A program made the translations under genes and the position numbers. Positions 56,767-62,178 of a stretch of DNA of 62,683 nt are shown in pieces. The notes beneath the pieces are model-generated. The model worked only from the letters and a program-made list of their open reading frames with translations, did not search any database and was not told the origin of the DNA. How positions within the stretch are numbered: position 1 is the stretch's first letter; every line of letters begins with the position of its first letter. The DNA comes from Alphaproteobacteria bacterium (lineage in GTDB: Bacteria; Pseudomonadota; Alphaproteobacteria; UBA9219). The stretch lies in assembly GCA_019233975.1 (NCBI GenBank), contig JAFALY010000023.1:1-62683 (forward strand). The letters are read 5' to 3'.

Positions 56767-56783
56767 CTTCATAGGAGGGCTTG

Positions 56784-57521
56784 ATGCAGACAACCACGCT
56801 CGCTTATATGGACGACCAGCATTGCACGACAGGCACGTCAACCGTTCTGGCCGTGACAGATGATGCCAAAGATGGCATGGCCTGCGTCGTATTGGATGCC
56901 ACCTGCTTTTATCCGCAGGGCGGCGGCCAGGCGTGGGATACAGGCAGCATGACAGCGCCAGGTGCGCGCTTTGCGGTTCAGGAAGTGCGCTTTGTCGATG
57001 GATACGTCCATCATTATGGGCGCTTTGAAGAAGCGCGCTTCGCGGTCGGCACATCGATCTCATACGCCATCGACGCAGAGCGACGCACCATGAACGCACG
57101 GTTGCACAGCGCGGGGCATTTGCTGGACGAGGCCGTGAAAAACCTTGGTTATGGCTGGGCGCCGACCAAAGGCATTCATTATCCCGGCCAAGCCGCCGTT
57201 GAATACACGGGCGCAGTTGAAGATTGCGAAGCCGCACGACAATCGATTGAAGCAGAAGCCAATCGCCTGATCTCAACCGGCCATCCGGTATCCGCAGCGC
57301 TGGTCAGCGCCGAGGCTTTGCCCACTGTCAGCAGCTTTGTGCCGCCCAATTTACCTGAAAACAAGCCGATACGCGTTGTAACCATGTGGGGCGATAAGGG
57401 CACCCCCTGTGGTGGCACACATGTCAAAGACATTACCGATATCGGCACCATGGCCGTGCGTTATGTGAAAGCGAAAAAGGGCCAGATCAAGGTTGCCTAT
57501 GAACTGGAGGGCTGCGCCTAA
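56784..57521 (+). CDS. Alanyl-tRNA editing protein AlaX
   Basis: 245 aa free-standing editing domain homologous to the AlaRS editing domain; it hydrolyses Ser- or Gly-mischarged tRNA-Ala. Zinc-binding motifs are RLHSAGHLLDEAV (HxxxH) and TPCGGTHVKDI (C-x3-H). CFYPQGGGQAWDTG is also typical. ATG 56784 has aggagg 6 nt upstream. Its end overlaps the convergent NlpC/P60 gene by 4 bp. Confidence 0.93.
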   Translation: MQTTTLAYMDDQHCTTGTSTVLAVTDDAKDGMACVVLDATCFYPQGGGQAWDTGSMTAPGARFAVQEVRFVDGYVHHYGRFEEARFAVGTSISYAIDAERRTMNARLHSAGHLLDEAVKNLGYGWAPTKGIHYPGQAAVEYTGAVEDCEAARQSIEAEANRLISTGHPVSAALVSAEALPTVSSFVPPNLPENKPIRVVTMWGDKGTPCGGTHVKDITDIGTMAVRYVKAKKGQIKVAYELEGCA

Positions 57522-58387
57522 ACCTCGGGCCGGCCAAACCCGGTCGGTTCGCCGCGCGTTTGGATGATCTCTTCAATCGTATTGGTGACAACCTTCATAC
57601 GGAACCCGCACGCATGAACGGCATGTTCCGTTCCGGTCATGATGACGATGTGACGCGGGCGCGGCAGAAAAACCAGATCGCCCCGCTTCCACCGCATATC
57701 ACGCCAATGAACGGGCAAAGGCTGGCCATAGCGCTCTTCCTGCAAATCAGTGTCGCGCGGGCTATCGATGCCCGCCATAGTCAGTGCCAACTGCACCAGA
57801 CCGGAACAGTCGATGCCGTCCGGCGTCCGCCCACCCCAAAGATAGGGCATGTTCAGGAGCCGCCCGGCAGTATAAGTGTAATCCCGCGTACGTACCTGCT
57901 CAGTTGGCAGAACATGCTCGGCATAAACATAACCGCCGCTTGCAAGCGCGTAAAAATCGCCCTCCTGCCCGGTGACGCTCACATAACTGCCGAGTGTAAG
58001 CACATCAATTGGTGGAACTTTCATGCTGGGCGTTGGGTAAACAAACGTCCGCAACACATTGACCTGATTTGATAAAGCGGCGATCTCTTCACTCAATGCA
58101 TGAGGATCATAGGGGATATAGCCTACGTAACGGTCTGTACGATTTTGCACCCATGCGAAGCCATCACTGATATCAAATACATCCAAAAATTCGCCATAGC
58201 GCACTTGGGTGACCATCTGGCTGGCCACATCCGGCTTTTCAAACACAGGCAACAAGCCGCGTACACACTGTCGCAGGACAGGTTCCACGTATTTGGCCGC
58301 AGGAATATCGTTCGACAAAGCCACGTCGACTATGTCCGAACGGTAGGCGTTGGTACGCGGATCAGGTTGGCTCGGGGTATAGGTCAT
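57518..58387 (-). CDS. NlpC/P60 family cysteine peptidase with SH3-like domains
   Basis: 289 aa. The N-terminal 170 residues look like one or two bacterial SH3-type domains (VFEKPDVASQMVTQVRYGEF; FAWVQNRTDRYVGYIP). The C-terminal peptidase has the nucleophile in GIDCSGLVQLALTMAG, the catalytic His in PRHIVIMTG, and PYLWGGRTPDG. Family members cut gamma-D-Glu-diaminopimelate bonds in muropeptides. No signal peptide is evident, which suits a cytoplasmic recycling role like dipeptidyl-peptidase VI. Confidence 0.9.
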   Translation of the reverse strand: MTYTPSQPDPRTNAYRSDIVDVALSNDIPAAKYVEPVLRQCVRGLLPVFEKPDVASQMVTQVRYGEFLDVFDISDGFAWVQNRTDRYVGYIPYDPHALSEEIAALSNQVNVLRTFVYPTPSMKVPPIDVLTLGSYVSVTGQEGDFYALASGGYVYAEHVLPTEQVRTRDYTYTAGRLLNMPYLWGGRTPDGIDCSGLVQLALTMAGIDSPRDTDLQEERYGQPLPVHWRDMRWKRGDLVFLPRPRHIVIMTGTEHAVHACGFRMKVVTNTIEEIIQTRGEPTGFGRPEV

Positions 58388-58416
58388 GCGGGCACTATAC
58401 CACGGTATTTACCGGA

Positions 58417-58842
58417 TTATACAGTGGCCCACTGTTCAGCAGGGCGCGCTTCGGGGGGCTGAACGGTGGTTTCAGCCACCAGTTCCACCATACGCGCAGG
58501 CTGCGTGGCGACATGCGCCTTGGCATCGTCCACCATGCCGGCGAACGCCGTCAGGAAGATGGCGCCATTTTGCGTGCGCTGAACCAGAACATTGCGGCGG
58601 TCCAGATCATCGCGTTCGCGACGGACATAGCCAAGTTCACCCAGACGGTCGAGCGCACGGCTAACCGCCGGCTTGGAAATACGCAGATACTGCGCCAATC
58701 CGCGCACAGTATGCGGGCCGTCGGACAGGTAAACGCAAAGCATCAGCGCCATCTGACGGGCTGACAAATCAGGTGCTTCACCGCGCACGCTGGAAACAAG
58801 GGCATGACGCCATAATTCAAGAGAATGAAACTGAACCGGCAC
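58417..58842 (-). CDS. MarR family transcriptional regulator
   Basis: 141 aa winged-helix protein. LSARQMALMLCVYLSDGPHT starts the core, VRGLAQYLRISKPAVSRALD is the helix-turn-helix, and LGELGYVRRERDDLDRRNVL is the wing. The C-terminus is short and polar. The gene is 29 bp upstream of the NlpC/P60 gene on the same strand; 109 bp separate it from the upstream PIG-L gene. Its ligand and targets are unknown. Confidence 0.88.
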   Translation of the reverse strand: MPVQFHSLELWRHALVSSVRGEAPDLSARQMALMLCVYLSDGPHTVRGLAQYLRISKPAVSRALDRLGELGYVRRERDDLDRRNVLVQRTQNGAIFLTAFAGMVDDAKAHVATQPARMVELVAETTVQPPEARPAEQWATV

Positions 58843-58951: not shown

Positions 58952-59722
58952 TTATGCGCTTGCACGACTCAGAAATGTCGTGATGGCAGCCGCCACATCG
59001 GTTGGATTCGTAAAATCCACCTGCGGATGCCTGAAGGGCACCCACTGAAACCGCGCATACCACAAGACACCGGGATGTGCGGGCTTGCTGTAGTCATAAT
59101 CACCAAGCGGCCTGTAAACTTCACGCTCGCATTTCACATAACTGAGATTGAGATTCTCGGACGGATAACGCGACAAAGCTTCGCGCTTGGCCGCCTGCTC
59201 GGCGGCGCTCAGCAATATCACCGTTTCTTGCCCGTTCGGAAAAGGAAAGGCATGTGAATGCGCGCGACCATCACTGTAATTATATTCGGCAAATTCGAGG
59301 ACACTCAGCCCCGGCTTGAAAAGCTGCGCCACGGCGTTAATCGCGTCATGATCGGCGTTTCCACCTTCAAAGGCGGGGACCCACAACTGGTCTATATCAT
59401 GTTGCGCCACAGCCTGTTCAATCTCTGCACGCACACGCGGCAAATCACGCCACACATGACGCGCGGGGCGGTCCAACCAGCCAGCCGGTCGTATATCCAG
59501 AAACCGCGCGACATCTTCGGCCTCCGCACGGCGGCGCGCCACCACAAGCGGATAAGCACGGCGTCGCCACGGCCACATAGTTTCACGCGAAACGCAGCCA
59601 TGCGTCAGATAAAGGGAAAAAATCTCGGCACCGGCCTGCCTGGCGCGGCCAATCGTGGCCGCGCACGCTACAATCTCATCATCCGGATGCGGCACAAGGA
59701 TCAGGATGCGACGACCGAACAT
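58952..59722 (-). CDS. PIG-L family N-acetylglucosaminyl deacetylase-like protein
   Basis: 256 aa from ATG 59722, ggagg 6 nt upstream; it overlaps the preceding gene (TGATG). The zinc motif is LVPHPDDEIVACAATIGRA, with the second ligand region AFEGGNADHDAINAV. The fold matches PIG-L/MshB/BshB deacetylases acting on GlcNAc-containing lipids or thiol precursors. Its coupling to a GT4 enzyme suggests that the enzyme pair makes and then de-acetylates an amino-sugar product. No further pathway gene is next to it. Confidence 0.87.
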   Translation of the reverse strand: MFGRRILILVPHPDDEIVACAATIGRARQAGAEIFSLYLTHGCVSRETMWPWRRRAYPLVVARRRAEAEDVARFLDIRPAGWLDRPARHVWRDLPRVRAEIEQAVAQHDIDQLWVPAFEGGNADHDAINAVAQLFKPGLSVLEFAEYNYSDGRAHSHAFPFPNGQETVILLSAAEQAAKREALSRYPSENLNLSYVKCEREVYRPLGDYDYSKPAHPGVLWYARFQWVPFRHPQVDFTNPTDVAAAITTFLSRASA

Positions 59723-61011
59723 CAGGCCTCCTTTTCCACGAAAGACTTTTGCCAGATGGCAAAGAGATCCTCGGCCAGCACCTGCCGCCATTCGGCAAGC
59801 TTGGTGCGACCATACTCCGCAGCGGCGTCTCGCATGACCTGCTGATGCTGCTTATCCTCGATGAAGGATCGCACCACGTCGCGCCAGCAATCAACGCCAC
59901 TGTCAACCACCTGCATGGCTGTCGTGTGATCGAACAGTTGTGCGATGCCGCTGTTTCTGGATACCAACACCGGACAGCCCGAGGCCATTGCCTCTACCCC
60001 CGCCATGCTGCGGATCTCCACTTCGGAACAGAGCGCGAGCGCATCAACGCTGGCGTACAAACGCGCCAGCTCATCCGGCGCCACGAAGCCCGGACTGGTC
60101 ACATGGTCGCCCAGACGCCTTTGCACCTCTTCACGCGCGGGGCCAACACCGGCAACAATCAAATGCGCCGGCACACCTGCGGCAATAATCTGCTCAAGGG
60201 CCGAAGTCAGCGTATAAATATTTTTGCCCACATCCACACGCCCGACAAACAGGAAGACGCACCTGTCGGCGGGGATGTTGTAATCACGCAGAATACCGGC
60301 ACGATCGCAGCGATGTAGTCCGAACATCTTTTTATCAATGCCAAGGCGCAAATGCGGCACACGCGCGGTGCCTATCTGCTCTGCTGCCAGAAGCCTGTCC
60401 TCTTCGCGCGTCACGAGGGCATAACGGCAGGTTTTGACATGCTGCCGTAAACGTTTCTCCATGGCGCGGCCCTGACGTTCCGGCACATCCAGCGTGTCCA
60501 GCAGCAAATGACGCAGCCACGGCATTTTAGCCGTCAGCTTCTCAATCGTCTGACGCGTGAAAATACGCGTGTAGGACGGCGTGTCTGTATGAAAAGAAGT
60601 CACCATAGGCACACCTGCGCGCTGCGCGATTTTGGTGGCCGTCTGTGAAAAAGCAAAAAAGCCGTCGGTCGTATGAATAACGTCAAAGGCGCGGAGTTCT
60701 CGCGCCAGCGCAGGATGCCAGGAGGCAAGATCCGTATGATCCGGAACATAGGGCAGAAATTTCAGGCGGGCCGTGCTGAAGACCGGCGGCAAGTGCCGCA
60801 AGCGCACAGTTGGCGACAAGATCTCATCCGGCGCATTGCCGGAAAAATAGACGCAGAGGTTAATCGGCAGATCACTGTCCACCGCCGCATGCGCCAAACG
60901 CTCCCAACACTTCACATGCCCGCCTGATTGCGCCGAGCGCGGCAGATCAACTAAAACCGCCACACGTAGGCGTTCATCGGCCGGTTTGGTCACGGGGTTG
61001 GGTTCAGTCAT
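59722..61011 (-). CDS. GT4 family glycosyltransferase
   Basis: 429 aa GT-B enzyme. The N-terminal acceptor domain has SGGHVKCWERLAHAA and PMVTSFHTDTPSYTRIFT, the latter like the MgtA/SqdX/PimB group that glycosylates lipids. The donor domain has VFLFVGRVDVGKNIYTLTSA, IVAGVGPAREEVQ, and the EX7E-like ALCSEVEIRSMAGVEAMASG plus CPVLV. The expected E-F-G-x-x-x-x-E is degenerate (SEVEIRSMAGVEA). The stop shares an A with the PIG-L start. Substrate unknown. Confidence 0.87.
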   Translation of the reverse strand: MTEPNPVTKPADERLRVAVLVDLPRSAQSGGHVKCWERLAHAAVDSDLPINLCVYFSGNAPDEILSPTVRLRHLPPVFSTARLKFLPYVPDHTDLASWHPALARELRAFDVIHTTDGFFAFSQTATKIAQRAGVPMVTSFHTDTPSYTRIFTRQTIEKLTAKMPWLRHLLLDTLDVPERQGRAMEKRLRQHVKTCRYALVTREEDRLLAAEQIGTARVPHLRLGIDKKMFGLHRCDRAGILRDYNIPADRCVFLFVGRVDVGKNIYTLTSALEQIIAAGVPAHLIVAGVGPAREEVQRRLGDHVTSPGFVAPDELARLYASVDALALCSEVEIRSMAGVEAMASGCPVLVSRNSGIAQLFDHTTAMQVVDSGVDCWRDVVRSFIEDKQHQQVMRDAAAEYGRTKLAEWRQVLAEDLFAIWQKSFVEKEA

Positions 61012-61059
61012 GGATGGCTCTCGCTTTCTTCGCGCGGCATGTTAGACTTCACTCCCATC

Positions 61060-62178
61060 ATGCGCAAGAAGCTCTCCACACTTATAATATGCATCGCCCT
61101 GTTATCCGGGTTCACCCCGGCACGGGCCGAGGATGCCCTTGCCGACGCGTCATCCCTTACGGCAGCGGTCCCGGCGTCCATCTTTTTCCCCATATTTCCC
61201 GAAGGCGCTGGTGACGACACGCCGCCCGCCTATATTCCGGTCGCCAGCAACCAGCCACTGGACCAAACCCACCCGGATGTGCGGCGCGCTGTTATTATTA
61301 TTCATGATTTTTCACGCGACGCGAGCAAGAGCCTGTCGGTGCTCAGCACGCTGGCGAGTGGCGCCAACGACACAACGATCATCATAGCCCCTCAATTTCT
61401 GACCCAGTCGGACATTACCCGCTTCGCCGATCACTTGCCGGAAAAAGGGCGTGATTTTGCGCGCTGGTCACTGGCTGGTTGGGCAAGTGGTGAAGAGTCG
61501 GTTGAGGTGCCAGGCCATAAGGGGATCAGCTCCTTTACCACTCTCGACCTGCTGATGATGTTGCTGGCTGACCGCGCCAATTTTCCTGACCTGCGTGAGA
61601 TCGTTTTAGTCGGACACGGCATGGGTGGTGATTTTGTGCAACGCTACGCCGCCGTGGGCCGCGCCCCCGATATTATGGCGCAGCAAGGATTAGAAACGGG
61701 CTACATCGTCGCCAACGCATCATCCTACCTTTATCTGACGGGCACGCGCGCACGCGGCAATAAAAACGGTCTTGGTAACACGGCGGGCTATGCCTGCCCC
61801 CACTTCAATCAATGGCCGTATGGTCTTGATGCCCTGCCCCCCTACGCCAAACATACAGGGGCAAATGCCATTAAAATGACCTATCCCGCCAGACGTATAA
61901 TCTTTATCGACGGTGAGACAGCGGCACAGGCAGACCCTGCGCCCGACACTAGTTGCGGCGCACTGGTAGAAGGTCAGGATCGCGTCAAACGATTGATAAC
62001 CTATGATGGCTACATCCACACGCTTTACGGTGCCGAAATAGCAGATAATCAGCGCAGCGTTATTTTATCCAAGGCAGGTTTTGATGCCGCCGCAACACTG
62101 GGTTCCCCCTGCGGCGTGTCGCTGTGGCTGGATGGGCAGTATGACCCAAAAAAATGCGGCGCTGGCCTCAGTGAATAA
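61060..62178 (+). CDS. Secreted alpha/beta-hydrolase-like protein lacking the nucleophile
   Basis: 372 aa from ATG 61060 (signal peptide LIICIALLSGFTPARAE); ATG 61039 is also possible. The nucleophile elbow reads LVGHGMGGDFVQRYA where GHSMGG is expected, so Gly187 (GGC) replaces Ser. Other expected parts are visible: VIIIHDFSRD near the oxyanion hole, VANASSYLYL after the elbow, an Asp in IFIDGETA and a His in GYIHTLYG. Related proteins act on esters or peptides. With the nucleophile missing, it may bind and not cut. Divergent from the GT4/PIG-L pair. Confidence 0.75.
   Translation: MRKKLSTLIICIALLSGFTPARAEDALADASSLTAAVPASIFFPIFPEGAGDDTPPAYIPVASNQPLDQTHPDVRRAVIIIHDFSRDASKSLSVLSTLASGANDTTIIIAPQFLTQSDITRFADHLPEKGRDFARWSLAGWASGEESVEVPGHKGISSFTTLDLLMMLLADRANFPDLREIVLVGHGMGGDFVQRYAAVGRAPDIMAQQGLETGYIVANASSYLYLTGTRARGNKNGLGNTAGYACPHFNQWPYGLDALPPYAKHTGANAIKMTYPARRIIFIDGETAAQADPAPDTSCGALVEGQDRVKRLITYDGYIHTLYGAEIADNQRSVILSKAGFDAAATLGSPCGVSLWLDGQYDPKKCGAGLSE

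Follow-up and report, generated by a model that had tools for sequence, protein, structure and literature searches.

A glycosyltransferase and PIG-L deacetylase gene pair in Micavibrio-like Alphaproteobacteria as a probable route to an amino-sugar hopanoid

The window examined here, that is, the whole stretch of 62,683 nucleotides of alphaproteobacterial DNA that was analysed, carries a GT4 glycosyltransferase gene followed without a gap by a PIG-L family deacetylase gene, and the question is which molecule such a pair would make. An earlier note on this DNA had recognised in it the logic of GlcNAc transfer followed by removal of the acetyl group, and had suggested the core of a thiol pathway or of an undescribed amino-sugar lipid pathway. 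The features concerned are the following.

59722-61011, minus strand: GT4 glycosyltransferase gene, 429 amino acids, PF00534 match

58952-59722, minus strand: PIG-L family deacetylase gene, 256 amino acids from the ATG at 59722, PF02585 match

59720-59733, minus strand: junction of the two genes, read from the sequence, with Shine-Dalgarno-like AAGGAGG at 59727-59733 and a TGATG stop/start overlap at 59720-59724

The junction reads AAGGAGGCCTGATG. The TGA stop of the GT4 gene and the ATG of the PIG-L gene have one A in common, 4 bases past the Shine-Dalgarno-like stretch, and the combination of TGATG and AAGGAGG suggests that translation of the two genes is coupled. The longest open reading frame of the PIG-L gene, 58952-59791, overlaps the GT4 gene by 70 bases. 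The gene itself is most likely 58952-59722, since several relatives (for example, L083, L091 and L094) start in the alignment exactly at MFG(K/S)RILIL..HPDDE. It is the sole match to PF02585 at E <= 0.001 in the source genome of 1.88 Mb.

Both proteins are readily assigned to their families. The glycosyltransferase scores 72.3 bits against PF00534 (Pfam cut-off 26.4), contains an EX7E motif and matches a GT-B fold. E332 and E340 of EX7E, H141, R258 and K263, which we take to be the catalytic motifs of the GT4 family, are invariant in all 22 aligned sequences, and so are S139, H141, T142 and D143 of the FHTDTP segment, to which attention had already been drawn and which is indeed present. The predicted structure (pLDDT 91.5) has MshA chains as its four best matches, followed by GlgM and BshA, with MshA 3c4q_A as the nearest solved fold (TM 0.73/0.79). 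MshA and BshA use UDP-GlcNAc. The deacetylase reaches 71.2 bits against PF02585 (cut-off 28.2), and HPDDE (12-16) and the later H125, presumably the catalytic motif of the family, are invariant in 18 of 18 aligned sequences; together with the fold matches, these characters place it in the PIG-L/LmbE-like superfamily. Its model (pLDDT 84.8, with two short segments below 50) is closest to teicoplanin-type pseudoaglycone deacetylases and then to diacetylchitobiose deacetylases, with MshB and BshB lower; the nearest solved folds are thus N-acyl or N-acetylglucosamine deacetylases. For both proteins, sequence profiles indicate relatives similar to those found by structure comparison. The predicted folds, one MshA-like and the other GlcNAc-deacetylase-like, are compatible with GlcNAc transfer and de-N-acetylation, which supports the transfer-then-deacetylate logic of the earlier note. 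The same logic is known from the PIG-A and PIG-L steps of the GPI anchor, in which GlcNAc is added to a lipid and then de-N-acetylated by a PIG-L enzyme, but GPI is eukaryotic and another lipid is involved.

In their GT4 and PIG-L families and in their closest solved folds, the MshA/MshB and BshA/BshB systems resemble the pair: MshA and BshA stand nearest to the glycosyltransferase, and BshB and MshB are found among the folds of the deacetylase. A thiol pathway resembling that of mycothiol or bacillithiol, with the pair as its core, would account for this. However, the scores are far under the cut-offs of the respective models, with 44.6 against 462.5 bits for MshA, 35.4 against 273.7 for BshA and 23.4 against 195.25 for BshB2. 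Moreover, BshC was found in none of the 33 genomes of the Micavibrio-like order to which the source genome belongs, in a search of which the control was positive in 3 of 14 named genomes, and no ligase was recognised as a third gene or among the recurrent neighbours in 43 clustered loci. On account of the missing BshC and the low scores, the thiol pathway was rejected, and we consider it highly improbable.

Within the order, GT4 relatives of at least 249 bits occur in 31 of 33 genomes and PIG-L relatives (best E 1e-52 or better) in 30, and the same number, 30, have both; the counts include G030, where the PIG-L gene consists of two fragments at contig ends. Neither gene was found in G017 (82% complete) and G024 (69% complete), and in G003, which has a divergent GT and a squalene-hopene cyclase (SHC), PIG-L was not found. 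In 23 of the 30 genomes the genes adjoin each other on one strand, and in G019 a distance of 1.1 kb separates them; G002, G010, G013 and G021 have them on different contigs, and both are at contig ends in G023. The GT is situated just upstream of PIG-L in 15 of 17 close PIG-L loci (L062-L078), the exceptions being a 3-kb contig (L064) and the unlinked case of G010 (L075); loci L079-L082 were left out because of a weak match to only part of the query.

When profiles from the GT4 and PIG-L alignments were run against a sample of 385 alphaproteobacterial genomes, a strong PIG-L (at least 280 bits) was found in 18, the GT in 19 and both in 18. G060 alone has the GT without PIG-L, and no genome has a strong PIG-L without the GT; G171 and G178, with a PIG-L near 100 bits and no GT, were not taken as pair genomes. 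Of the 13 pair genomes outside the order, 11 have the two genes side by side, and the other two (G179 and G356) have them on separate contigs. The pair or its GT is spread over ten families of the sample (f1, f2, f3, f11, f18, f31, f82, f90, f129 and f130), and co-occurrence across such scattered families speaks for a joint action of the two genes. The GT4/PIG-L pair is a genuine, conserved two-gene module. The direct succession of the genes described in the earlier note and their conservation as a pair, on which it had made its reading depend, are both borne out. In a plasmid collection, no match to the GT was found, and the one PIG-L match, in Skermanella rosea, has 26.8% identity.

When the open reading frames of the 43 loci were clustered, the recurring partner with an informative identity was cluster c3, a PF03706 membrane protein. 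As c3 looked like a GpgF-type flippase, our working view was initially that of an analogue of gpgSDF. In Pseudomonas aeruginosa, according to PMC12713373, gpgSDF makes glucosaminyl-phosphatidylglycerol by means of a GT4 enzyme, a deacetylase of COG3233 and a protein predicted to be a flippase. The pair would then produce glucosaminyl phosphatidylglycerol or another glucosaminyl glycerolipid, in the manner of gpgSDF or of hexSDF of Clostridioides difficile, with which it shares a GT4 enzyme followed by a deacetylase and a PF03706/YbhN-type membrane protein as recurrent partner. Indeed, the order GT, PIG-L, PF03706 protein in L076, L078 and family f11 mirrors that of synthase, deacetylase and flippase, and the window GT4 has its best NCBIfam match in GlcN_PG_synth (NF053787). 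This match, however, amounts to 64.9 bits, far under the cut-off of 480 for the GpgS family, and covers the C-terminal half only, and the gpg deacetylase belongs to COG3233 (PMC12713373), unlike the PF02585 PIG-L of the window. Furthermore, c3 is named HpnL by NCBIfam (TIGR03476; 274.6 bits in the source genome and 304.4 in G012, cut-off 195.65), SHC co-occurs, and the relatives of the pair are found in a hopanoid rather than a phospholipid gene context, the hpn islands of G261, G111 and G060 containing either the pair or the GT. The naming of c3 and the co-occurrence of SHC led us to demote the glycerolipid to a rival explanation, and it now seems an unlikely one.

HpnL orthologues were found by BLAST in all 33 genomes of the order, and in 11 of these HpnL adjoins the GT or PIG-L with at most one open reading frame between; in one of the 11 (G031), it is a fragment at a contig end, after PIG-L. 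Family f11 and the loci L076 and L078, which represent a separate lineage, have GT, PIG-L and an HpnL-like gene in this order on one strand, the f11 copies scoring 157-165 bits, under the family cut-off of 195.65. With HpnL or HpnL-like proteins counted from 120 bits upwards, a threshold set for this analysis, they are present in all 18 pair genomes of the class sample versus 64 of 367 others; 14 of the 18 have an HpnL over the curated cut-off. Since 64 sampled genomes have HpnL and no pair, it is not specific to the pair. Among the 19 genomes with the GT, 10 carry HpnL no more than 10 kb away from the GT or PIG-L (G004, G040, G060, G111, G173, G179, G261, G271, G351 and G356), and in G179 and G356 the GT adjoins HpnL. 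In a GT tree of 51 rows, the rows nearest to the window GT4 are G011, G012 and G025, in the latter two of which HpnL adjoins the pair. The hpn-linked and PIG-L-linked GTs do not form two clean clades in this tree, and several deep forks are open. Four genomes have two GT copies each: G001 (L104, L105), G031 (L106, L107), G111 (L184, L185) and G158 (L197, L198). In G001 and G111, one copy accompanies PIG-L and the second HpnL; this could reflect two acceptors or a split module.

Hopanoids are bacterial relatives of cholesterol. The name of HpnL comes from its association with hopanoid genes, and SHC was searched for this reason. It was found in 32 of 33 genomes of the order, in 30 over cut-off, the only exception being G023 (63% complete), in which it was not found. 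In the class sample, 15 of 18 pair genomes have SHC versus 92 of 367 others; outside the order, the count is 10 of 13 versus the same 92 of 367. The Fisher p values, which ignore relatedness, are 8e-7 for SHC, 2e-4 for SHC outside the order and 2e-13 for HpnL. In nine of the ten families, at least one of the genomes carrying the pair or its GT also has SHC. The tenth is f129, represented by G158 alone, a genome 74% complete in which SHC was not found; nor was it found in G173 and G351 of f11, a family in which G040 and G271 have it.

The linkage is physical in several genomes. One contig of G261 carries hpnL, hpnA, hpnN, PIG-L, GT, hpnM, ispH, hpnH, SHC and hpnD, so that the pair lies within an hpn island, flanked by hpnM and hpnN. 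On one contig of G111, hpnD, hpnE, SHC, an hpnG-like gene (177.4 bits, cut-off 187.1), hpnH, hpnL, GT and hpnM are found, with hpnB upstream; PIG-L and the second GT copy are on a different contig from this island. In G060, where PIG-L was not found by the class-wide profile search, the GT adjoins hpnM in a stretch also containing SHC, an hpnG-like gene (163.1 bits), hpnH, hpnL and hpnA. HpnH was confirmed with NCBIfam in G000, G004, G025, G040, G060, G111, G179 and G261, and was not found within the bases examined in the SHC stretches of some other pair genomes. Contig C29 of the source genome encodes SHC (815.3 bits), HpnH (538 bits) and an hpnG-like protein (183.6 bits, just under cut-off), so that, judged from genes and not from product, the source organism has the SHC and HpnH of an extended-hopanoid host.

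It could be imagined that the pair modifies a sugar of LPS, capsule or another polysaccharide, and that envelope regions with a common ancestry account for the association with hopanoid genes. In its C-terminal half, the window GT4 is matched weakly by several polysaccharide GT4 models, and neither gene is near HpnL or SHC in genus g102, G008, G010 and G013, as such an explanation would have it. Nevertheless, six families of the class sample (f2, f11, f18, f31, f82 and f130) and two of the order (f1 and f3) show linkage to HpnL or to hpn islands, and no polysaccharide cluster was recognised around the pair, most neighbours of which are without annotation. A role in polysaccharide modification is, in our opinion, improbable, even more so than that in a glycerolipid.

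Because the recurrent partner is HpnL and some relatives are found with hpn islands, a hopanoid is the more likely acceptor, as compared with a thiol precursor or an undescribed glycerolipid. Judged from gene content and context, the pair probably makes an amino-sugar hopanoid, acting as a non-homologous stand-in for HpnI and HpnK. We infer the donor, the acceptor, the product, the order of the steps and the role of HpnL as follows. The GT4 enzyme would attach GlcNAc, with UDP-GlcNAc as the presumed donor, to a bacteriohopanepolyol, of which bacteriohopanetetrol (BHT) is the most likely; the PIG-L enzyme would then take off the acetyl group, giving BHT-glucosamine with a free amine; and HpnL, a multi-span flippase-like PF03706 protein encoded elsewhere in the source genome, is a candidate for handling the product. 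The glycolipid side of the original proposal thus survives, with a hopanoid taking the place of an undescribed glycerolipid, and the proposed comparison of neighbours in relatives yielded HpnL and some hpn islands in the place of BshC or a ligase. Some points count against a hopanoid: the window copy is away from HpnL and SHC, which the source genome has on contigs C16 and C29, respectively; genus g102 has both the pair and HpnI; and G060 and G003 have the GT without PIG-L.

In the known route, as described in PMC12583986, HpnI adds GlcNAc to BHT, HpnK takes the acetyl group off and HpnJ converts the product of HpnK to BHT cyclitol ether. The proposed logic of the pair, the presence of some relatives in hpn islands and the hopanoid-making hosts are alike, whereas the proteins belong to other families: neither the window GT4 nor the window PIG-L matches the HpnI (TIGR03472) or HpnK model at E <= 0.001. 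HpnI over cut-off was found in 0 of 26 genomes of the order examined, the source genome included, and not in G060. Outside the order, 3 of 13 pair genomes have it (G119, G231 and G399), all of genus g102, in which the pair is not near hpn genes. For comparison, 40 genomes were hand-chosen from the 92 SHC-positive genomes without the pair (G060 included), one per family, with SHC over cut-off and a completeness of 90% or more, to which G171 and G178 were added; 11 of them have HpnI over cut-off and 29 do not. The pair is therefore mostly found where HpnI is missing, with one genus as exception, and a hopanoid producer can do without both systems, given that 29 of the 40 have neither.

Another difference from the known route concerns HpnJ. 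The reading frames of 111 stretches were searched for two motifs, radical SAM as a mark of HpnJ and YdjC-like as a mark of HpnK, and nine other stretches for the former (seven flanks of hpn islands and two stretches beside the islands of G004 and G000). Apart from HpnH, the matches in SHC stretches are two open reading frames, in L214 and L215, presumably lysine-aminomutase-like; two long ones matching the radical SAM motif in L234 and L235 look spurious. Since the motif screen of the hpn stretches near relatives of the pair gave no candidate for HpnJ, BHT-glucosamine may be the end product.

Composite hopanoids, BHT-glucosamine and its cyclitol ether among them, serve as biomarkers, and their producers are predicted from hpn genes. 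PMC12583986 states that hpnI, hpnJ and hpnK were not detected in four alphaproteobacteria among the producers of BHT-cyclitol-ether-type compounds; their absence is called unexplained there, with genome incompleteness put forward as one possible cause, and hpnL is described as having no established function. If it makes the same first product, the pair would allow both puzzles to be addressed directly. We incline slightly towards the view that it represents a second, independently evolved amino-sugar hopanoid route in which HpnL is the translocator, one that is general within the Micavibrio-like order and occurs sporadically in other Alphaproteobacteria. If so, gene-based prediction of composite-hopanoid producers is incomplete, Micavibrio-like bacteria have amino-bearing hopanoids in their envelope, and producers without detected hpnI, hpnJ and hpnK could be explained. 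A literature search, with most subscription journals outside it, gave no work linking Micavibrio with hopanoids, and no PIG-L or LmbE in the bacteriohopanetetrol literature among the matches listed.

The other recurring neighbours, namely an alpha/beta-hydrolase-like protein, an alpha/beta hydrolase, a penicillin amidase-family protein and an inositol monophosphatase-family protein, gave no hint of a pathway. The penicillin amidase-family cluster c5 (L083:14566-17019 and relatives; PF01804, 705.8 bits) occurs at nine loci in the vicinity of the pair or its GT. In the window, the gene at 61039-62178 on the plus strand, divergent from GT4, encodes a probably exported alpha/beta-hydrolase-like protein that has no Pfam or NCBIfam match at E <= 0.001. 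Relatives of it are present at 18 of 43 loci, usually divergent from the GT, and it contains GHGMGG in place of GxSxG, so the usual serine may be missing. Downstream of the pair, 57518-58842 on the minus strand encodes a MarR-family regulator and an SH3-NlpC/P60 protein, an order seen again among the clustered loci only in G011 (L116). Finally, 56781-57521 on the plus strand resembles the editing part of alanyl-tRNA synthetase (PF01411 54 bits, PF07973 under cut-off), and its product is perhaps an AlaX-type trans-editing protein.
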